Below are positions 5,122-30,327 of a DNA stretch of 64,000 nt, piece by piece; positions within the stretch are counted from its first letter, which is position 1; each line of letters starts with the position of its first letter. The position numbers and the translations under genes are program-made. The stretch is from contig JAJZTS010000007.1 in assembly GCA_021848725.1 (NCBI GenBank), positions 1 through 64,000 of the forward strand, given 5' to 3'. The notes beneath the pieces are model-generated. The model was not told the DNA's origin, ran no database searches, and was given only the letters and a program-made list of their open reading frames with translations. The DNA comes from Pseudomonadota bacterium. GTDB lineage: Bacteria; Pseudomonadota; Gammaproteobacteria; Burkholderiales; Thiobacillaceae.

Positions 5122-5829
5122 GAACTGGATTTGCAGCGTGCCGGCATCCGTCGCGACGCCTTGAAGGATTCGGCCATTGTTCGCCTTGCAACGGACGAGG
5201 TCGCCGGCCACCGCATTCGAGATCGCCGTGCATTCCTGGCTGACCGTATAGGTGGGTGTCTGCACCATGATGCGAACTTTTTGCCCGGCGCGGATCGCCA
5301 GCGGTTTTGTCAGCATATTGGGCGTCATCGCTTGGCCCGCTTGGATCGGCTGCTTGCTTACCAGGCCGACGGCTTGCTGCGGGTTGCGCAGGTAGTTGGC
5401 TGGATCGGCGCTAAGCGCGATCTCTCTGAGCTCGACGTCCCGTGGCTTGATCGTCTCGCGTGCGGCCAACGCTCTTCCGGCGACCAAGATCGGCCCGCGG
5501 AGCTCGATTTGATAGCCTAGATACAGCGCCCAAGGCTGTGGGGCCTCGCAGCGGACGCCAAGCGAACCCATGCCATAGAGATGGGCGCCGGGGGCCAGGC
5601 TGAATTCCAACTGGCGGCATTGATGAAGGCGCAGGCGCGGGTCGGGGGGGCGAATGTTGATCTGTGCTTGAAATTCGGGATAGCTGCGGCCGGCCTCCGA
5701 CTTCAGGTGTTCCGCCGCCATTTGGGTCATCTGTTCCAGCGACTGTGTTGGGATAGCCTCTTGTGCCAGGCTGGAATTGCCTAGAAGGAATAAAAGGCAG
5801 AGCATGCGTCTGCTGAGATAAAACGTCAT
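5119..5829 (-). CDS. flgA: Flagellar basal body P-ring formation chaperone FlgA
   Basis: Periplasmic chaperone for polymerisation of FlgI into the P ring. The 236 residues begin with a Sec signal peptide (cleavage near NSSLAQ, about residue 23). The C-terminal half is an SAF domain: VAGRALAARETIKPRDVELREI, then QAVGLVSKQPIQAGQAMTPNML and AIRAGQKVRIMVQTPTYTV. A pair of cysteines in the N-domain (HQCRQ and VRCEA) is typical. It is divergent from the diguanylate cyclase gene with 68 bp between the starts. No clear sigma54 or sigma28 box was found in that gap. Confidence 0.93.
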   Translation of the reverse strand: MTFYLSRRMLCLLFLLGNSSLAQEAIPTQSLEQMTQMAAEHLKSEAGRSYPEFQAQINIRPPDPRLRLHQCRQLEFSLAPGAHLYGMGSLGVRCEAPQPWALYLGYQIELRGPILVAGRALAARETIKPRDVELREIALSADPANYLRNPQQAVGLVSKQPIQAGQAMTPNMLTKPLAIRAGQKVRIMVQTPTYTVSQECTAISNAVAGDLVRCKANNGRILQGVATDAGTLQIQF

Positions 5830-5897
5830 GGCGATCTTGTTGGAGTGTGACTAGAATTTCAGCTTTAGCAAAACCCCTCTAGGATACGGCGATCTCG

Positions 5898-7502
5898 ATG
5901 GATCATCCAAGTCAACCGACCAATATTGCGCGCGATGCGCTCAAGTGGCTGACGCAACGCAAGTTGCCGCCTACGCCGGATAACTACCGGCGCGCCTATG
6001 CCGCGGTCTCGGGCGAAGAGGAAAAGTCGGCGCCTTGGCCGGAGGCGATTCGTACCCTGCTTGGGCAATGGGATATCCGGCATGTGGGTCTGCCGCAGGC
6101 CAAGAAGCGGGAAATGGTCGAGCGGGTATTGATCAACTTCGGCAATCAGCCGAGCGATTTGCACGAGAAGATCACGGCTTTGGCGCGTTCTTGGGCCGAA
6201 ACGCCGACCTCCAGGAAGGTGATGGAAGGCGAAGAGGAATTACCGGAACAGGAAGGTGAGGTGCCGGCAGAGGGTGCCGTGGTCGTGCCGACTGTCGGTT
6301 CCGAGGCGATGTCGAGCGAGCTTACGCAAGCCATGGTCGACAGCATCAAGGTCTTTGCTGCCGGCTGCGAGGCCTTGTGGCCGGACTTGGCCAAACGAGC
6401 GCAGCTATTGGCTCAAGAAGTCGAATCGACGCAGTTGTCGCAAGCCGGCCAGCAGATTAACGAGCTCGGGCGCTTGTGGCGCGAGTTCATCATCCGTGCC
6501 GAAGATAATGTGGAACTGCTCGATGGTTTGCGGCGAGTGGTGGCGTTGCTGTTCCGTAACGTCGGTGACATGTTCGCTGACGATCCGTGGATACGCCGCC
6601 AGATCGAGACCGTGCATGCGGTGGTCGGCGACAGCCTCAATTACCGCAGCATTTTCGACGCCGAGCGCACACTGGAGGAAGTGGTCAATCGGCAAAAGGC
6701 CTTGCAGATCAGTCTCCGAGAGGCCAAGACCCGGCTGAAGGGGTTGATTTCCACTTTCGTCGATCGGGTCGGTGAGCTGACCGAGACTACCGGCGAGCAG
6801 CATGAGCGTATTCAAATTTATGCCGACAAGATCGCTGCGGCGGACGATTTGGGTGAATTGAACGAGGTCATGGAAGGACTGACGGCCGAGATGGGCCGTA
6901 TGCGCGACCAGATGCGGGAAACGCATGGCGAGTTGCTCGATGCCCGCCAGCATGTCGAGCAGGCCGAGGGCCGCATTCGGGAGTTGGAGAGCGATCTGCA
7001 GGAAGCCGCCAACCTGGTACGTGAAGACCAGCTGACCAGCGCGCTCAACCGGCGCGGCATGGAAGAGGCCATGGAGCGAGAGCTGGCGCGTTCAGAACGC
7101 ATGACGGCGCCGTTGAGTCTGGCCTTGCTCGATATCGACCACTTCAAAAAGATCAACGACAGTTATGGCCATCAAGCGGGCGATCAAGCCCTGATCCATT
7201 TGTCCAAGGTGACCAAGCAGTTGCTGCGCCCAACGGATTCTCTAGGGCGTTGGGGGGGCGAAGAATTCCTGATCATGCTGCCGAACACCGATCTGACCGA
7301 GGCGGAACGCGTGATGCAGCGGTTGCAGCGCGAACTGACCAAAACCTTTTTCCTGCACAACAACGAACGCATCTTGATCACCTTCAGTGCCGGTGTGACC
7401 CAGCGGCAGCCGGGCGAGGAGCGGGATGTCTGGATCTCGCGTGCCGACAAGGCGATGTACCGTGCCAAGGCGATGGGCCGCAACCGGGTCGAGCGCGGCT
7501 GA
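5898..7502 (+). CDS. Diguanylate cyclase (GGDEF) with long helical N-terminal region
   Basis: Makes cyclic di-GMP from two GTP. The active-site GGEEF is at residues 453-457. It is preceded at the correct five-residue distance by an RPTD inhibitory site (444-447), so product feedback is expected. LLDIDHFKKINDSYGHQAGD and the C-terminal RADKAMYRAKAMGRNRV are standard GGDEF blocks. Residues 1-360 have no membrane segment and hold a small N-terminal module (about 1-75) and long coiled-coil-like helices (about 280-370). The enzyme should therefore be soluble. Its position between flgA and flgB suggests a role in motility control, which is an inference from context only. Confidence 0.9.
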   Translation: MDHPSQPTNIARDALKWLTQRKLPPTPDNYRRAYAAVSGEEEKSAPWPEAIRTLLGQWDIRHVGLPQAKKREMVERVLINFGNQPSDLHEKITALARSWAETPTSRKVMEGEEELPEQEGEVPAEGAVVVPTVGSEAMSSELTQAMVDSIKVFAAGCEALWPDLAKRAQLLAQEVESTQLSQAGQQINELGRLWREFIIRAEDNVELLDGLRRVVALLFRNVGDMFADDPWIRRQIETVHAVVGDSLNYRSIFDAERTLEEVVNRQKALQISLREAKTRLKGLISTFVDRVGELTETTGEQHERIQIYADKIAAADDLGELNEVMEGLTAEMGRMRDQMRETHGELLDARQHVEQAEGRIRELESDLQEAANLVREDQLTSALNRRGMEEAMERELARSERMTAPLSLALLDIDHFKKINDSYGHQAGDQALIHLSKVTKQLLRPTDSLGRWGGEEFLIMLPNTDLTEAERVMQRLQRELTKTFFLHNNERILITFSAGVTQRQPGEERDVWISRADKAMYRAKAMGRNRVERG

Positions 7503-7658: not shown

Positions 7659-8066
7659 ATGCTAGGAAAACTCGATCAGGAATTGGCTTTTGTGCAGAGC
7701 GCGCTGGACCTGCGGGCGCGCCGCCAGGAATTGATTGCGGCGAATATCGCCAATGCCGACACGCCGAACTACAAGGCGCGCGATATCGATTTTCAAACGG
7801 CCCTACGCTCGGCGATGGGCGCCTCCGCAGGCCCGCTGGCCATGACCCGTACCGCGAGCAACCACCTCGCAGGGGTTGGCGGCTCGGGTGGCGGCGGCGC
7901 AGTGCAGTACCGCACCGCACTTCAACCCAGTTTGGATGGCAACACGGTCGACAGCGATGTCGAGCGTGCGCATTTTGCCGAGAACGCCATGCATTACCAG
8001 TTTCTGCTCGAGCGCGCACGCGGCACCTTCCGCACGATGGCTCAAGCCTTGGAGGCTAGCCGCTGA
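7659..8066 (+). CDS. flgB: Flagellar proximal rod protein FlgB
   Basis: One of the proximal rod subunits linking the MS ring to the distal rod in the periplasm. The 135 residues show the rod/hook N-terminal signature RRQELIAANIANADTPNYKARDIDF and a C-terminal helix region (NAMHYQFLLERARGTFRTMAQALE). It is the first gene of the sigma54-driven run, with AAGGAG upstream of the ATG. Its stop overlaps the flgC start by one base (TGATG). Confidence 0.96.
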   Translation: MLGKLDQELAFVQSALDLRARRQELIAANIANADTPNYKARDIDFQTALRSAMGASAGPLAMTRTASNHLAGVGGSGGGGAVQYRTALQPSLDGNTVDSDVERAHFAENAMHYQFLLERARGTFRTMAQALEASR

Positions 8067-8479
8067 TGTCCATGCTTAACGTCTTTCAAATTTCGGCCTC
8101 GGCGCTGAGCGCGCAATCCATGCGCTTGAACGCGGTGGCCAGTAATCTGGCCAATGCCGACTCGGCGACCTCGTCGACGGGCGAGGCGTACAAGGCCAAG
8201 CAGGTTGTGTTCGAGGCAGTGCCGGTCACGAAAAACGATCCCTTGGCGCAGGGTGTTCGAGTCAAAGAGGTGGTCGACGACAAATCGCCGCCGCGTATGG
8301 TCTACGACCCGAGCCATCCCTTGGCCGATTCGAAGGGCTATGTGACCTACCCGAACGTTGATGCGGTGGAGGAGATGGTCAACATGATCTCGGCCTCGCG
8401 CTCGTACCAAACCAATGCCGAGGTGATGTCCACGGCGAAAGATCTCATGCAGCGCACCCTAGCGCTGCTCCAGCCCTAA
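8066..8479 (+). CDS. flgC: Flagellar proximal rod protein FlgC
   Basis: Proximal rod subunit. The 137 residues carry the N-terminal MRLNAVASNLANADS motif and the C-terminal YVTYPNVDAVEEMVNMISASRSYQTNAEVM block common to FlgC, FlgF and FlgG. It is translationally coupled to flgB by a one-base overlap and followed 13 bp later by flgD. Confidence 0.96.
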   Translation: MSMLNVFQISASALSAQSMRLNAVASNLANADSATSSTGEAYKAKQVVFEAVPVTKNDPLAQGVRVKEVVDDKSPPRMVYDPSHPLADSKGYVTYPNVDAVEEMVNMISASRSYQTNAEVMSTAKDLMQRTLALLQP

Positions 8480-8492
8480 GGAGGAATGAATT

Positions 8493-9173
8493 ATGGCCAT
8501 CGACACTGCGAATAGCGCCGACCGGACCAGTTTGGTTAATGAGCTGAATGGGCAGAGCGGGACTAAGGTCGCCAAATCGGATGTGGCGGCGATGCAGGAT
8601 CGATTCATGACGTTGCTGACCACGCAGCTGAAGAACCAGGACCCGAACAATCCGCTCGACAACGCTCAGATGACATCGCAGTTGGCTCAGATGTCCACGG
8701 TAGAGGGCATCAGCAAGCTGAACGACAGCATCAGTGCCTTGTTGGATGGTTATAAATCCAGCCAGACCATGCAGGCGGCCTCGCTGATTGGCCATCAGGT
8801 GCTGGTCGATGGCGATACGCTGACCCTGAACAAGGCGCTCGGAGGCGGTGCGGTTGAGCTGAAGGGTAGCGTGGACAGCCTGAAGGTGAACATCCTCGAT
8901 GCCAATGGCCAGGTGGTCCGTACCTTGGATAAGGGGCCGCAGGCGGCCGGTGTGCAGTCGTTCATCTGGGACGGCAAGGACCAGAACGGGCAGCAGCTGG
9001 CAGACGGCCAATACAGCTTTACGGTCGAGGCCAGCAAGGGTGGCACCAAGGCCGATGCCACTGCCCTTGCGCTGGTTGGCGTAAGCAGTGTGGTCGTCAA
9101 CAATGGCGGCATCGAATTGCAAACGATTGGTCTGGGCTCGCGCCAGATGAGCCAAGTGCGGCAGATTTACTAA
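8493..9173 (+). CDS. flgD: Flagellar hook assembly scaffold FlgD
   Basis: Cap or scaffold that guides hook subunit (FlgE) polymerisation and is then discarded. The 226 residues include the conserved N-terminal DRFMTLLTTQLKNQDPNNPLDNAQMTSQLAQMSTVEGI and a C-terminal FlgD Ig-like/Tudor part (VRTLDKGPQAAGVQSFIWDGKDQNGQQLADGQYSF). AAGGAGG lies just upstream of the ATG. It lies in the flgB-flgG operon. Confidence 0.96.
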   Translation: MAIDTANSADRTSLVNELNGQSGTKVAKSDVAAMQDRFMTLLTTQLKNQDPNNPLDNAQMTSQLAQMSTVEGISKLNDSISALLDGYKSSQTMQAASLIGHQVLVDGDTLTLNKALGGGAVELKGSVDSLKVNILDANGQVVRTLDKGPQAAGVQSFIWDGKDQNGQQLADGQYSFTVEASKGGTKADATALALVGVSSVVVNNGGIELQTIGLGSRQMSQVRQIY

Positions 9174-23300: not shown

Positions 23301-24578
23301 TTACTTGGCCTCTTGTTGATTCATCCACTTCAAGCGCTGGCACAAGCTGCCGACGATGCGGCGCGAGAACGGCGCGGAATAGCGCATGAGCTCTTCCAGC
23401 ATCTGCGGCGGCAGGGCCAGCACGATGACCTCGGTCTCGGCGACCACGGTGGCGGTGCGCGGCTCGTTCAACAGGTAGGCCATCTCGCCGAACAGCTCGC
23501 CTTGCTCGATGTGGCCGAGCGGCGTGCCCTCGGGGCCGCCCTTGTACAGCGCGACCCGGCCGGAATAGAGGTAGTAGCTCAGGTCGCCGGCCTCGCCTTC
23601 GCGGATGAGCACGCTGCCGGCGGGCAGGGGCTGGCCGTATTTGGCGAGCAGGCGGTTGGTGCTGCTGAAGGCCAAGTTTTCCAGGCGATTGGCGCCTTGG
23701 CCTTCGCGGCCGAGGAACAGGCGTTCCAAGGCGGCGACGTCGACCTTGGTCACGGCATACAGGCATTGCGCCCAGGCGAAGAAGGTGACGCTGATGAAAT
23801 AGATGCCGATCAGCACGAACACCACGCCGGCGAGCGAGCCGTAGACGGCGCGGTATTTCTCGGCGCTGAAGAAATGACCGAAGCCGATGGCGAGGACGAT
23901 CAGACTGAGCGCGGCCAGCGCGCTGACCCACAAGGTAGGACGCAACGGCGGCCGGCGCAGCGGCAGATGGCGGAAGGCGAAGAAGGTGAGGGCCCAGACG
24001 GTGAGCAGGGTGAACAGGCCGCTGGCCACCTGCAGGGCCTCGGCCCGGCCGGCGCCGAGCAGCGAGGGCTGGGCCAGGAATTCCAGCACGCCGCGGGCGG
24101 CGACGCCGAGCAGGATGAGCAGGAAGGCCAGCGGCACGATGAGCAGGGGAATGGCCCAGGACACCACGAAACGGCGCTTGCTGTCGGCCGGAAAGATCAC
24201 CCGGAAGGCGCTTTGCAGGGCATTGAGCAGGCCGCGCGAGGACAGCAGCAGGGTGAGCAGCCCGACGCCGCCGGCGGCGAGCCGGGCCTTTTCCGGCAGC
24301 ACGCCGAATTGGCGCAGGGTGTCGAGATGGAACTGGTCGTAGATGGCGGCCAGCAGGATGGAGCCGGCGGCCGAGGTCTCCGCCCAGCGCTCGATCAGGC
24401 CGATGGCGTAGAACGCAAGCATGATCAGCGGCGCGGCGGACAGCAGGAAATACAGCGACACCGCCGCCGCGTGGTTGAGCAGTTCGTTCTTGCTGAACAG
24501 GCGCCAGGTGGTCCAGCCGGTCTGCATCAGCCAGTCGAGCCGGTCGCGGTGCCGGGCGGGGGTTTTCGTGTCTGTCAT
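23301..24578 (-). CDS. YihY/UPF0761 inner-membrane protein fused to a cyclic-nucleotide-binding domain
   Basis: The 425 residues have two parts. Residues 1-285 match the YihY/BrkB family: an N-terminal segment LFSKNELLNHAAAVSLYFLLSAAPLIMLAFYAIGL and about six membrane helices up to VFVLIGIYFISVTFFAWAQCLYAV. Residues about 305-415 form a Crp-type cNMP-binding domain: LPAGSVLIREGEAGDLSYYLYSGRVALYKG, then the binding cassette LGHIEQGELFGEMAYLLNEPRTATVVAETEVIVLAL. The classic arginine of the phosphate cassette (GE...R-TA) is present. The fusion suggests a membrane protein gated by a nucleotide, which is an inference. It is divergent from the DUF1015 gene. The start could also be the ATG at 24584. 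Confidence 0.85.
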   Translation of the reverse strand: MTDTKTPARHRDRLDWLMQTGWTTWRLFSKNELLNHAAAVSLYFLLSAAPLIMLAFYAIGLIERWAETSAAGSILLAAIYDQFHLDTLRQFGVLPEKARLAAGGVGLLTLLLSSRGLLNALQSAFRVIFPADSKRRFVVSWAIPLLIVPLAFLLILLGVAARGVLEFLAQPSLLGAGRAEALQVASGLFTLLTVWALTFFAFRHLPLRRPPLRPTLWVSALAALSLIVLAIGFGHFFSAEKYRAVYGSLAGVVFVLIGIYFISVTFFAWAQCLYAVTKVDVAALERLFLGREGQGANRLENLAFSSTNRLLAKYGQPLPAGSVLIREGEAGDLSYYLYSGRVALYKGGPEGTPLGHIEQGELFGEMAYLLNEPRTATVVAETEVIVLALPPQMLEELMRYSAPFSRRIVGSLCQRLKWMNQQEAK

Positions 24579-24640
24579 GTGCATCAAACTAGCCGAAAGT
24601 GGGGGAAGGCGGCAAGAAAGGTAAAATACGGTTTTTTCGG

Positions 24641-26020: not shown

Positions 26021-26404
26021 TCAATGTTGTTGCGACAGGAAGGCGATCAGGTTGGCCCGCTGCTCGACATCACTGATGCCGCCGAAGCTCATGCGGGTGC
26101 CCGGCACCAATTTGCGCGGGTCTTCGAGAAAGGCGCCGAGCTTGTCCGGCGTCCAGGTCAGGCCGCTGCTGCGCAGGGCATCGGAGTAGCTATAGCCTGG
26201 GCTGCTGCCGGCAGGCCGGCCGATCATGGCGTTGAGCGGGGGCCCGAACTTGGTCTTGCCCGGCAGCAGGCTGTGGCACATGGCGCAGGACTGCTCGAAC
26301 TGTCGGGCACCCTGGGCGGCGTCCTCGGCCCGGCCGAGTTGAGGGGCCAAACACGCCGTCAAGGCCAACAGCGGGAGGAAGATATGGCGTTGCGCGGGCC
26401 TCAT
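26021..26404 (-). CDS. Periplasmic class I monohaem cytochrome c
   Basis: The 127 residues have a signal peptide (cleavage after GRA, about residue 26), the haem motif CAMCH (40-44) and a likely distal Met in PGTRMSF (Met 105). FGPPLNAMIGRPAGSSPGYSYSDALRSSGLTW and LVPGTRMSFGGISDVEQRANLIAFL match the soluble cytochrome c2/c550 type. It carries single electrons in the periplasm. It begins 10 bp after the porin-cytochrome gene on the same strand, so the two are almost certainly co-transcribed. The natural inference is that it takes electrons from, or gives them to, the outer-membrane protein. Confidence 0.9.
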   Translation of the reverse strand: MRPAQRHIFLPLLALTACLAPQLGRAEDAAQGARQFEQSCAMCHSLLPGKTKFGPPLNAMIGRPAGSSPGYSYSDALRSSGLTWTPDKLGAFLEDPRKLVPGTRMSFGGISDVEQRANLIAFLSQQH

Positions 26405-26413
26405 GCTTTCCCC

Positions 26414-27754
26414 TTAGAAGGCGGTCCAGATAAAGGCAAAGACGGTGTTGTTGTCCTTGGCGTTGCGGCCGGCCCCGTCGTAGTTGTGGCTGGCGCCCAT
26501 GAACTTGGAGTACAGGGTGTATTGCAGGCCCAGGCGCAGATTGGCCCACGACCCGCCCCACGAGTCTTCCTTGCCGAAGGGCGTCCAGTCGGCCTGGAGG
26601 GTTAGGCCGTCGGTATCCGGCTTGCCGTTGGCCGAGCCGTACAGCGTGGCATCGGCATCGCCGCGCGTGCTGAACAAGTTGGCGGAGAGGCCGTAGGTCT
26701 GATCGTAGTAATACGAGGCGATCAGGTCGTAGCGGTTCAGCTTGCCCTTCAGCGTGTTCGCGCCGCCGGCGGCGAAGGTGGCGTTGCGCTCTTGGCTCTC
26801 GTGTAGATAGCTGGCAGCCAGGCTGTAGGCGTTCTTGCCGGCCCGGTATTGGTAGGAGGCGTCGATGCCGATGTCGTCATAGCCGTCGCTCGGGCCGGCC
26901 ACCCGATCGGGCAGCAGCTTGGCGTTCATGCCGAACAGGCCCGCCGAATAAGCCGAGCCGCCGAGATCCTTGATGTAGCCCAGACGCCAGTAGGGGGCGG
27001 TGCCGTCGATCTTGCCGGCATCGGCACCGACGTTGACCTTGTCGAGGAAATCCTTGGACAGCGACTTGTAGCCGCCCAGTTCGGCATAGACGGCATTGTC
27101 CCAATAGCCGTAGGCGGTCACGCCGAGGGCTTGCTGGGCCAGCGTGCCGGCCAACAGCGGCGAGGCCGAGCCCGGCGCATATTCCGAGCTGGTGAAGGGG
27201 AAGCGCCAGGCGGGCAAGGTATTGAGCGGATCTTGCACGCTGGGATTGTTGTTCAGGCTGATGCCGAGCACGGCATCCTTGCCGGCGATGCGAGTCGGCA
27301 GTGCATACCGTACGTCGACATTGTCGAGCGCGGTCTTGTGGTCGATGCCGGAATAGGTGGCCTGCACGAAGGAGCCGACATGGTCGCTCAGTTTGCCGGC
27401 GAGGAAGGCCGACACCTCTTGCAGCGCGCCCTTGTTGTTGCCGATGTCCTGGTCTTTCTCGGTGTGGGTCCAGGAGGCCAGCGCCATGGCGGACAAGGGC
27501 ACGTTAGGCTGGCCATTGGAGGCGGTATAGCCTTCCAGTTTGAATTTCATGCCATAGGGCGTGAGCTGAGGGCCGAAGGCGCCGACGTGACAGGTTGCGC
27601 ACTCTTGACCGGTTTGGCGTTCGTAGCTCGGCAGGGCATGGGCTGGCAGGCTGGCGCCGGCCCAAAGAATCAAGGTGCCGATCAGCGTACCGGCGGCCTT
27701 CCACGGCTTTCGCATCAGCGCGTGGCTTAAAAGATGAGCGTGTTTATGCGGCAT
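26414..27754 (-). CDS. Outer-membrane porin with fused N-terminal monohaem cytochrome (Cyc2-like layout)
   Basis: The 446 residues begin with a signal peptide ending near PAHA (residue 40). A short haem segment ERQTGQECATCH follows (CATCH, 52-56) and continues VGAFGPQLTPYGMKFKLEGYT. The remaining 370 residues look like an outer-membrane beta-barrel: alternating aromatic/polar strands (NRYDLIASYYYDQTYGLSANLFST, WANLRLGLQYTLYSKFMG) and a terminal Phe. This is the architecture of Cyc2, the fused cytochrome-porin of iron oxidisers. Family membership was not tested by alignment, and homologues with other donors are possible. The ATG at 27754 is preferred; one at 27715 would also give a signal peptide. 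Confidence 0.85.
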   Translation of the reverse strand: MPHKHAHLLSHALMRKPWKAAGTLIGTLILWAGASLPAHALPSYERQTGQECATCHVGAFGPQLTPYGMKFKLEGYTASNGQPNVPLSAMALASWTHTEKDQDIGNNKGALQEVSAFLAGKLSDHVGSFVQATYSGIDHKTALDNVDVRYALPTRIAGKDAVLGISLNNNPSVQDPLNTLPAWRFPFTSSEYAPGSASPLLAGTLAQQALGVTAYGYWDNAVYAELGGYKSLSKDFLDKVNVGADAGKIDGTAPYWRLGYIKDLGGSAYSAGLFGMNAKLLPDRVAGPSDGYDDIGIDASYQYRAGKNAYSLAASYLHESQERNATFAAGGANTLKGKLNRYDLIASYYYDQTYGLSANLFSTRGDADATLYGSANGKPDTDGLTLQADWTPFGKEDSWGGSWANLRLGLQYTLYSKFMGASHNYDGAGRNAKDNNTVFAFIWTAF

Positions 27755-27902
27755 GGCTATCTCGCTATTTTTCGGTAAATCGATACGGGCGAGAGTGTAG
27801 GGAGAGATGTCAGGGCGTTGGTTTACGATTTGGTAAGAGGGGACGGTGTTCGGCTGTGGGATGAGTAGGCGGGCCGCTTGCCGGTGTCATGCCGGCGTCA
27901 AA

Positions 27903-27918
27903 CTTACATGACCGTAAG
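27903..27918. promoter_or_regulatory. Candidate response-regulator box in divergent promoter region
   Basis: CTTAC-N6-GTAAG lies in the 221-bp gap between the porin-cytochrome gene and the response-regulator gene, 58 bp upstream of the latter. Half-sites of this type and spacing are common for OmpR-family regulators of the metal-sensing branch. Autoregulation is likely. Control of the cytochrome genes as well is only an inference. Confidence 0.45.
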
Positions 27919-27975
27919 CTTGCCTTCAGGAATGGGCCGATAAACTCTAGCCGGTCGTTTTCCACGGGTCTGCCA

Positions 27976-28671
27976 ATGAAAAGTATCGCGCATCTGCTCC
28001 TGATTGAAGATGACGACAAGATTGCCTCTTTTGTCCTGCAGGGGTTGAGACAGGCCGGCTATACCGTCGATCATGCGGCCGATGGTGTGCAAGGCCTGGC
28101 CCAGCTGCGGGAGCGGGCCTACGACGCGGCCGTGGTCGACATCATGCTGCCGCACCTGGATGGGGTGTCCTTGGTCGAGCAGGCGCGTCAGGCCGGGGTG
28201 CGCAGCCCGATCATTTATTTGTCGGCCAAGCGCGAGGTCGAGGACCGCATTCGCGGTTTGCAGGCGGGGGGCGACGACTATTTGACCAAGCCCTTTGCCG
28301 CCTCTGAACTTTTGGCCCGAATTCAAGCCTTGATCCGCCGTTCGCAAGGCATGGCGGAGCCGGTGTGCCTGACGGTGGGCGATTTGGTGTTGGATTTGGC
28401 GCGCCGCCATGTCAGCCGCGCCGGTAAGGAAATCCTGCTGCAACCACGCGAGTTCCGACTGTTGGCTTATTTGATGCGGCATAGAGGCAACGTGGTGTCC
28501 AAGAGCATGCTGATCGAGCATGTCTGGGAATACAACTTCGACCCCGAGACCAGCGTCATCGAAACCACGATGAGCCGCTTGCGCGCCAAGCTCAGCGATG
28601 GATTCGCCGATAAGCCGGAACTGATTCGCACATTGCGCGGGGTCGGCTATGTATTAGAGTCTGTCTCATAA
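27976..28671 (+). CDS. OmpR-family two-component response regulator
   Basis: The 231 residues have a receiver domain (acidic pair in LLLIEDDDK, phosphoacceptor Asp 55 in VVDIMLPHLDG, Lys in DDYLTKPFAASELLARI) and a winged-helix DNA-binding domain (LQPREFRLLAYLMRHRGNVVSKSMLIEHVWEYNFDPETSVIETTMSRLRAKL). The sequence resembles the heavy-metal branch (CusR/CzcR/IrlR). The ATG at 27976 is the domain-consistent start. The last four residues (ESVS) and the stop codon come from the inserted repeat element at 28657. Removing the element restores an end VLDAAV that overlaps the kinase start by 14 bases. Confidence 0.93.
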   Translation: MKSIAHLLLIEDDDKIASFVLQGLRQAGYTVDHAADGVQGLAQLRERAYDAAVVDIMLPHLDGVSLVEQARQAGVRSPIIYLSAKREVEDRIRGLQAGGDDYLTKPFAASELLARIQALIRRSQGMAEPVCLTVGDLVLDLARRHVSRAGKEILLQPREFRLLAYLMRHRGNVVSKSMLIEHVWEYNFDPETSVIETTMSRLRAKLSDGFADKPELIRTLRGVGYVLESVS

Positions 28672-28922
28672 GATCCGACGGGCGCGACGGTGGCGATTTT
28701 GATACAGGCCGCGAAGCGCAACGCGCGGTTTGGTTATTCCAAACAAGGGGGGCGCGATAAAGGCATGTGGCAAAATCGCCCCGTCCCGAAGGGTTGCCGC
28801 CAGAAACGGCGTCTGCCGCGTTGCGGTGCTTGGCAATGGAACGACCACTGCTTTCGCACCGCGCCTTGCATCCATCCGTTTCTGACGGCAACGCGCTCCG
28901 TCGGATTTTATGAGACAGACTC
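28657..28922. mobile_element. 266-bp MITE-like element between regulator and kinase genes
   Basis: The element has 25-bp terminal inverted repeats (GAGTCTGTCTCATAA then G/A ATCCGACGG) differing at one base. It is flanked by a 3-bp duplication TTA (28654-28656 and 28923-28925). Both ends and the TNA-type target duplication fit the IS5 superfamily, which suggests mobilisation by an IS5-type transposase elsewhere. The interior has no transposase and the small open frames in it have no recognisable content. It contains a TTTGG/CCAAA hairpin near 28728-28743. Confidence 0.88.
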
Positions 28923-28926
28923 TTAG

Positions 28927-30327
28927 ATGCCGCGGTTTAATTCGCGCCGTTCCTTCGCGCTCAAACTGGCGTTGTTCTACGCGCTCTTCTTCGGCGTCAT
29001 CAGCGCGGGCGGCGTGGCCTTGCTGTATAACTTGGTACGCACGCACACCCTGAGCGAGGTCGACCAGGAACTGCTCGAGCGCAAGGAGGAGATCGGCCTG
29101 GCCGCGGCGCGTATCGGCCTGGCCGGTTTGCGCAGCGAGTTTTCGGCGGATTCCGAGGCCTTTGGCCGGCAGGACTATTTCATCCGCATGTTGGATCGCT
29201 CGGGCAACATCCTGGTCAGTTCCGACACCTCGGCCTGGCCACCGGCATTGTTGGCCAAGATCGATATTTCAGGCGACGACCCGCAGTTCTCCTATTTGCG
29301 GTTGCCGGATGCCCGCAGCAAGGCCCGTGTCCTGTCGGCCAGAATCGGTGACGACGCGATTCTACAGTTGGGCATCTCGCTCGAAGACAACGAGAATTTC
29401 CTGCGCCTGTTCCGGCGCTATGCCCTCATCATCGTCTTCAGCATGCTGACGCTGGGCACCCTGATCGGTTGGGCTTTGGCGCGCAAGGCCATGGCCGGGG
29501 TCGAAGCGGTCACCCGCACCGCCGCCGGGATCGCCGGTGGCAATTTCGCCCATCGCGTGGAGGCGGCCGGCTATGGCCGGGAGATTGACGATTTGGTCAG
29601 TACCTTCAACCGCATGGCGAGCCGGGTGCAAAGCCTGATGGAACAAATGCGCCAAGTGAACGACAACATCGCGCACGATCTGCGCAGCCCGCTTACCCGT
29701 ATCCGCGGCCTGGCCGAGGGGGCCGCGATGAATGGCGATTTGGGCCATGACGGCATCGAATTGGCCGGTAGCATCGTCGAGGAGTGCGACCGGCTGATCC
29801 AGATGATCAATACCATGCTCGATATCTCGGAAACCGAGGTGGGCATGCAAGGGCTTAGGTTGGAGGCGGTCGAGCCGGCACGCCTGGCGCGCGATGTGTT
29901 CGATCTATTCCAAGATGTCGCGCTCGACAAAGGCATTCATCTCAGCGCGGACATTCCATCCGTGACCGCGATTCAAGGCGACCGGCGCAAGTTGCAGCGA
30001 GCCTTGGCGAATTTGCTCGACAATGCCTTGAAGTACACGCCGAGCGACGGTGAAGTCAAGGTGTCGCTGACCGAGGACGCCGGTCGCATCGCCTGGGCCG
30101 TGCAAGACACTGGTCAGGGTATTGCGCCGGAAGATTTGCCGCATATCTTCGAGCGTTTTTATCGCGGCGACCGCAGCCGCCATTTGGCCGGTAGCGGGTT
30201 GGGCTTAAGCCTGGTCCGCGCCATCGCGCGGGCGCATGGGGGCGAGGTCAGTGTCGAAAGCCGGTTTGGGCAGGGCAGCGTGTTCACGATGACCTTGCCG
30301 AAGCAGGCTGAGGGCCGGGCACACTAA
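28927..30327 (+). CDS. Two-component sensor histidine kinase
   Basis: Inner-membrane kinase partner of the upstream regulator. The 466 residues have TM1 (about 12-35), a periplasmic sensor (about 36-162), TM2 (about 163-185), HAMP, HisKA with His 250 in NIAHDLRSPLTRIRG, and an HATPase_c domain (N box LANLLDNALKYTPSDG; G boxes DTGQGIAPEDLPHIFERFYRGD and GSGLGLSLV). The periplasmic domain has no metal-binding cluster that I can see, so the signal is unknown. The start codon ATG at 28927 lies 2 bp beyond the element's target duplication, so the native ribosome-binding site, which would have lain in the regulator gene, is now displaced. Confidence 0.93.
   Translation: MPRFNSRRSFALKLALFYALFFGVISAGGVALLYNLVRTHTLSEVDQELLERKEEIGLAAARIGLAGLRSEFSADSEAFGRQDYFIRMLDRSGNILVSSDTSAWPPALLAKIDISGDDPQFSYLRLPDARSKARVLSARIGDDAILQLGISLEDNENFLRLFRRYALIIVFSMLTLGTLIGWALARKAMAGVEAVTRTAAGIAGGNFAHRVEAAGYGREIDDLVSTFNRMASRVQSLMEQMRQVNDNIAHDLRSPLTRIRGLAEGAAMNGDLGHDGIELAGSIVEECDRLIQMINTMLDISETEVGMQGLRLEAVEPARLARDVFDLFQDVALDKGIHLSADIPSVTAIQGDRRKLQRALANLLDNALKYTPSDGEVKVSLTEDAGRIAWAVQDTGQGIAPEDLPHIFERFYRGDRSRHLAGSGLGLSLVRAIARAHGGEVSVESRFGQGSVFTMTLPKQAEGRAH

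Follow-up and report, generated by a model that had tools for sequence, protein, structure and literature searches.

A Cyc2-family cytochrome-porin from a poorly studied branch and its monohaem cytochrome partner in a Thiobacillaceae genome

Results and discussion

Organisation of the locus

The locus lies in a 64,000-nucleotide stretch of contig JAJZTS010000007.1 (assembly GCA_021848725.1, Thiobacillaceae), referred to below as the window. Two cytochrome genes on the minus strand face a two-component system across a divergent intergenic region:

26021..26404, minus strand: P0002, exported class I monohaem cytochrome c of 127 aa with the haem site CAMCH (PF00034, 3.8e-08)
26414..27754, minus strand: P0001, Cyc2-family fused monohaem cytochrome-porin of 446 aa, assigned from sequence and an AlphaFold2 model; signal peptide 1-40, haem plug about 41-86 with CATCH at 52-56, predicted 16-stranded barrel 87-446
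27755..27975, no strand: divergent intergenic region with the inverted repeat CTTACatgaccGTAAG
27976..28671, plus strand: response regulator of the OmpR/PhoB type (PF00072, PF00486), divergent from P0001; relative L001 shows this arrangement too
28657..28922, no strand: MITE-like element of 266 bp with terminal inverted repeats (GAGTCTGTCTCATAAR...) and a TTA target duplication
28927..30327, plus strand: sensor histidine kinase (HAMP, HisKA, HATPase_c)

A preliminary description of this DNA had noted a 446-residue protein with a signal peptide, a single CATCH motif within 16 residues of the mature N-terminus and a beta-barrel-like region ending in Phe. All of these features were recovered. The open reading frame at 26414-27754 encodes a typical signal peptide with an A-H-A cleavage site, followed by LPSYERQTGQECATCH; the sole haem site CATCH (residues 52-56) occupies mature residues 12-16 if Ala40 precedes the cut; and Phe446 terminates a barrel of 16 strands in the AlphaFold2 model. 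The small exported monohaem cytochrome downstream and the divergent two-component system, composed of an OmpR-type regulator and a HAMP/HisKA/HATPase kinase, had likewise been described correctly. Only the spacing between the cytochrome genes, given as ten bases, required correction, as 9 bases separate the stop codon of P0001 from the next ATG.

The regulator start was set at the first Met, as in the 93%-identical relative L001, within a longest open reading frame that begins at 27889. The sister genome has conserved the inverted repeat CTTACatgaccGTAAG, which might serve as a site for the regulator. OmpR-type regulators were found upstream in 8 of 28 loci, corresponding to 0.10 per kb versus 0.0036 per kb elsewhere in the flanks (about 28-fold). 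The 266-bp MITE-like element is inserted at the regulator-kinase junction, where it has replaced the last residues of the regulator (VLESVS versus VLDAAV in L001) and has pushed apart two genes that in L001 overlap; the same-genus genome G043 contains many related copies. This element is a neighbour of the conduit and lies outside it. Elsewhere in the window, positions 23301-24587 (minus strand) encode a BrkB/YihY-type membrane protein fused to a cyclic-nucleotide-binding domain.

Cyc2 motif and predicted barrel of P0001

Searches of Pfam and NCBIfam with P0001 returned no matching model. PDB sequence searches with P0001 and with a family profile yielded no relative, and no solved Cyc2 was found by sequence. 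The published Cyc2 signature comprises AxPxFAR[QK][TY] upstream of CxxCH and PxL downstream (PMC8406198). P0001 displays this motif as A40-LP-S-Y-E-R-Q-T48...C52ATCH56...P62QL64, with two departures, Phe to Tyr and Ala to Glu (Glu45). Residue 45 is Ala in most members, and the latter exchange is a counterpoint to the function proposed below; close relatives, e.g. L002 and L008, match the motif exactly, and the signature is present throughout the relatives of P0001. Size and export are also those of the Cyc2 family, as the protein is exported, exceeds 365 aa (446 aa) and carries one CxxCH near its N-terminus. Across 104 aligned sequences, A40, P42, Q47, C52, C55, H56, G68, F71, G120 and G127 were invariant and P62, L64, K72, R257 and D298 nearly so, conservation upstream of the haem site being partly by construction because the rows were chosen by the Cyc2 motif. 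P0001 keeps the superfamily-wide residues A40, P42, Q47, C52, C55, H56, P62, L64, G68, F71 and K72. Met90, retained at about 90% in the clade of P0001 and its relatives and not in the Cluster 1-like set, could be a distal haem ligand.

Every full-length relative that was read contains CxxCH, and two loci that failed the motif filter (L030, frameshifted; L086, at a contig edge) still keep it. An ordinary porin with a chance CxxCH was therefore rejected, because the motif is retained by all full-length relatives that were read. Also among the loci that failed the filter, two 5'-truncated cyc2 copies devoid of the haem domain were observed in L029 (near 8001-8935) and L031 (near 5421-5975); in L029, monohaem and tetrahaem genes still follow downstream.

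An AlphaFold2 model of P0001, built on a 29-row alignment (mean pLDDT 81.2, pTM 0.78), showed three short helices between residues 43 and 73 and then exactly 16 strands (87-445). Comparison with solved structures, for which Foldseek was run too, gave OmpC as the best match (Z 22.8, 302 residues, 3.7 Å), alongside OprO (Z 22.5) and OprP (Z 22.0), and the alignment of the model with 16-stranded porins covered almost all of the mature protein. Cyc2PV-1 itself was modelled on OprO and OprP, and the 16-stranded OprO/OprP-like barrel characteristic of the Cyc2 family is predicted for P0001 as well. The barrel anticipated in the preliminary description is thus present in the model, with matches to porin folds.

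Relatives and tree placement

A scan of the contigs of the genome collection retrieved 31 loci encoding relatives of P0001 at 40-93% identity, among them loci from Thiobacillus, Azospira, Derxia, Paucibacter, Novimethylophilus, Rhodanobacter, Rhodopila and Magnetococcales. Profile matches were obtained in 93 of 399 genomes of the same order, a count that takes in Cluster 1-like proteins too, and in 88 of 398 genomes of the phylum.

A tree of 101 sequences resolved three large clades, as published for Cyc2. As the tree set was assembled without the reference Cyc2 of Acidithiobacillus ferrooxidans, we infer the cluster names of these clades from motifs and distribution. The first clade, with plugs of the type AIPAFARQTG...CHFQSFP, includes sequences from nearly all genomes of coded family f79 and from many of f25 and f38. 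It would correspond to Cluster 1, because every lineage of the Zetaproteobacteria has been reported to possess Cluster 1 cyc2, and some also Cluster 3 (PMC7029218). The Cluster 1-like rows, whose identity was taken from coded families and motif, formed a separate clade (100/98 support) that excludes P0001. The second clade (AIPVFARKYG...CHTMFPKL), to which extra copies in coded family f79 belong, may be read as Cluster 3. The third unites AVPSFARQTG...FPELTPFGR proteins, linked to a dihaem Cyc1-like gene, with the group of P0001, and probably represents Cluster 2, in which P0001 is putatively placed.

Within the third clade, P0001 belongs to a subclade of 34 rows (40 in a first tree) that share the haem loop H-xxx[FY]G-PxL (92/84 support). 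In P0001 this loop reads H-xxxFG-PQL and is two residues longer. When the loop residues were removed, the long-loop subclade was still recovered as one group, with weak support (66% SH-aLRT). P0001 thus fell among proteins with conserved CxxCH and AxPxF.RQTG, and not in a porin family in which CxxCH is not conserved. Motif, 16-strand OprO/OprP-like model and tree placement agree with the Cyc2-type porin-plus-cytochrome layout suggested at the outset: P0001 is a typical member of the Cyc2 family from a poorly studied branch.

The partner cytochrome P0002

P0002-type proteins keep CxxCH and an invariant Met105. The closest PDB entries were a cytochrome cy fused to CcoP (6xkx, 7.7e-41) and 1hro (1.2e-34), and by this comparison P0002 resembles cytochromes cy, c2 and mitochondrial c. 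Such cytochromes are donors to cytochrome oxidases, so the likeness points to electron delivery to oxidases.

A homologue of P0002 adjoins the gene in 31 of the 40 members of the long-loop subclade in the first tree, in most cases as the next gene downstream (overlapping it or up to about 30 bases away). Among the remaining members of the third clade, a dihaem Cyc1-like gene takes this place in 20 of 33, and few have a P0002-like neighbour (L033, L076 and, on the other side, L025). Partner states, monohaem versus dihaem, require three changes on the tree among 58 scored rows, absences being less certain than presences because flanks are short in some loci. Repeated co-evolution of loop type with partner type was considered and rejected: the loop arises once on the tree, so its link with the partner is in effect a single evolutionary event. 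Cytochrome neighbours of cyc2 are already known from the literature, a mono- or dihaem cytochrome gene being reported as frequent beside cyc2 in Acetobacteraceae (PMC10715153).

Two further loci are of note. In L127 (G166:C62, 5308-7021), the gene downstream of a long-loop Cyc2 relative appears by eye to encode a small cupredoxin rather than a cytochrome, possibly a third partner type. L033, a plasmid of Acidithiobacillus ferrooxidans YQ-N3 (CP084173), carries a Cyc2-like gene with a P0002-like cytochrome gene downstream; the match scores of this Cyc2-like gene equal those of the copy on the Acidiphilium cryptum plasmid NC_009469, which suggests horizontal spread.

Genome context

Single searches of the window's own genome revealed form I- and form II-like RuBisCO genes with LysR-type regulators, and SoxB is encoded as well; genes for carbon fixation and thiosulfate oxidation are thus supported by sequence. 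Absences are provisional, as the assembly is about 89% complete. No MtrB/PioB homologue was found in it, and a neighbouring decahaem conduit was rejected for this reason. A search for narG gave no match above the cut-off, so that nitrate-dependent oxidation through Nar is not supported.

The P0001-P0002 pair is absent from two same-genus genomes, in which the slot between a DUF1015 gene and a radical-SAM gene is occupied by a different operon of about 6 kb. Its absence from both marks the pair as an accessory trait, and the replacement of the slot in congeners, together with the gene arrangement kept in the near relative L001, indicates an exchangeable cassette. In L005, L021, L028 and L044 the same cluster also holds a NapC/NirT-type tetrahaem gene (PF03264 confirmed in three, L044 by similarity); no NapC gene lies beside the window pair. 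Inspection by eye of eight neighbourhoods of selected relatives revealed no obvious rus operon (cup, cox), sought as an anchor for Cluster 2.

Proposed function and alternatives

Family membership, barrel topology, haem site, export signals and a conserved partner are supported by the sequence and the computed model. On balance we favour, as fairly likely, a role for P0001 as the conduit by which electrons from the oxidation of Fe(II) enter the cell of a lithoautotroph that is a facultative sulfur oxidiser. From the analogy to Cyc2 proteins already tested, we infer a donor, a direction of flow and a transfer to P0002: dissolved Fe(II), or some other small soluble donor like it, would enter the P0001 pore from outside and reduce the plug haem, and the electron would then move on to P0002, the soluble class I cytochrome c encoded alongside. 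P0002 would then shuttle through the periplasm to a haem-copper oxidase, and its electrons may also be driven uphill towards bc1 and NADH to support CO2 fixation. Regulation of the pair probably falls to the divergent two-component system. Growth on ferrous iron has a precedent in Sulfuriferula, betaproteobacterial sulfur oxidisers that carry Cluster 2 cyc2 (PMC12285272). As counterpoints to a role in iron oxidation, the pair is an accessory trait, many relatives of P0001 occur in lineages of heterotrophs (Paucibacter, Derxia, Caballeronia), and function outside Cluster 1 is treated as context-dependent (PMC10734462, PMC8406198). No member of the long-loop subclade is known to have been characterised biochemically, and donors other than iron are conceivable.

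The alternative that fares best retains a Cyc2-type conduit with another purpose or direction, such as electron uptake from a different soluble donor, from a mineral or from an electrode, or the dumping of electrons onto Fe(III). A paralogous Cyc2 of acidithiobacilli has been described as acting in ferric iron reduction (PMC10715153), and the electrode-oxidising Tenderia appears in the published Cyc2 tree (PMC7029218). The subclade is also found in many lineages that are not known to us as iron oxidisers, and the NapC/NirT-type family, represented beside the pair in four relatives, can link to quinones either way. Fe(II) oxidation has nevertheless been the outcome for every Cyc2 protein tested to date, one from each cluster (PMC8406198, PMC7029218); moreover, P0002 is of the oxidase-donor type, and the genome resembles iron-growing Sulfuriferula in encoding carbon fixation and thiosulfate oxidation. 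We therefore regard another purpose or direction as rather unlikely, if well worth considering.

It is doubtful, and a little more so, that the long-haem-loop subclade represents a functionally distinct Cyc2 lineage, in which the haem mouth would have co-evolved with a mitochondrial-type cytochrome c, not a c4-type Cyc1, and which would have acquired a NapC-type quinone link in some members. Very improbable, finally, is a mainly diffusion or redox-sensing porin whose haem would signal via the adjacent two-component system instead of carrying respiratory current: the predicted barrel closely resembles general porins and OmpR-type regulators are enriched upstream about 28-fold (8 of 28 loci), but the two-component neighbour is missing at most loci, the haem plug is better conserved than the pore, and the conserved neighbour is a soluble electron carrier.

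Cyc2 is a widely used marker of bacterial iron oxidation, with a function that is well supported for Cluster 1 only. The branch of P0001 is common and has a consistent partner gene. Because cultured strains such as Derxia gummosa DSM 723 and Novimethylophilus kurashikiensis La2-4 carry it, its meaning for iron oxidation is directly testable. If the branch does stand for iron oxidation, current counts of iron use among sulfur oxidisers and heterotrophs are too low; otherwise, reliance on cyc2 leads to an overestimate of iron oxidation in metagenomes. A distinct lineage, if real, would imply that electrons taken up at the outer membrane pass directly to oxidases or quinones in many Proteobacteria that have so far escaped notice as users of extracellular electrons.

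Comparison with known systems

The P0001-P0002 finding is sound but expected; its interest lies in a branch that has been studied little and in the dedicated monohaem partner. Like Cyc2PV-1 of Mariprofundus ferrooxydans, Cyc2 of Acidithiobacillus ferrooxidans and Cyt572 of Leptospirillum, P0001 possesses a signal peptide, one CxxCH near the mature N-terminus, the AxPxF.RQT and PxL motif, a predicted 16-stranded OprO/OprP-like barrel and a length above 400 aa. It differs from known Cyc2 proteins in its position outside the Cluster 1-like and Cluster 3-like clades and in Glu45 for the usual Ala. The haem loop H-xxxFG-PxL places five residues before PxL, as opposed to three or four in many other Cyc2 proteins, and in the barrel the sequence alignment with Cluster 1 is poor, with profile matches that end at about position 130-160.

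With the cyc2-cyc1 pairs of the rus operon (Acidithiobacillus and relatives), the locus shares a gene for a periplasmic c-type cytochrome immediately downstream of the one for the cytochrome-porin. P0002, however, is a monohaem class I cytochrome of the c2/cy/mitochondrial type, whereas Cyc1 is a dihaem c4-type protein, and the cup, cox and rusticyanin genes of the rus operon are absent beside P0001-P0002. In Sideroxydans lithotrophicus, the Mto route proceeds via MtoAB-PmcA-ImoA (PMC13390432). P0001 is a monohaem fused porin, in contrast to the Mto porin with its decahaem cytochrome, and unlike in the PmcA/ImoA route no NapC/NirT tetrahaem gene lies beside P0002. Both systems nonetheless combine an outer-membrane conduit with a periplasmic monohaem cytochrome, and in four relatives of P0001 an ImoA-like NapC/NirT tetrahaem gene is clustered with the pair, an arrangement that recalls the Mto route with Cyc2 standing in for MtoAB.
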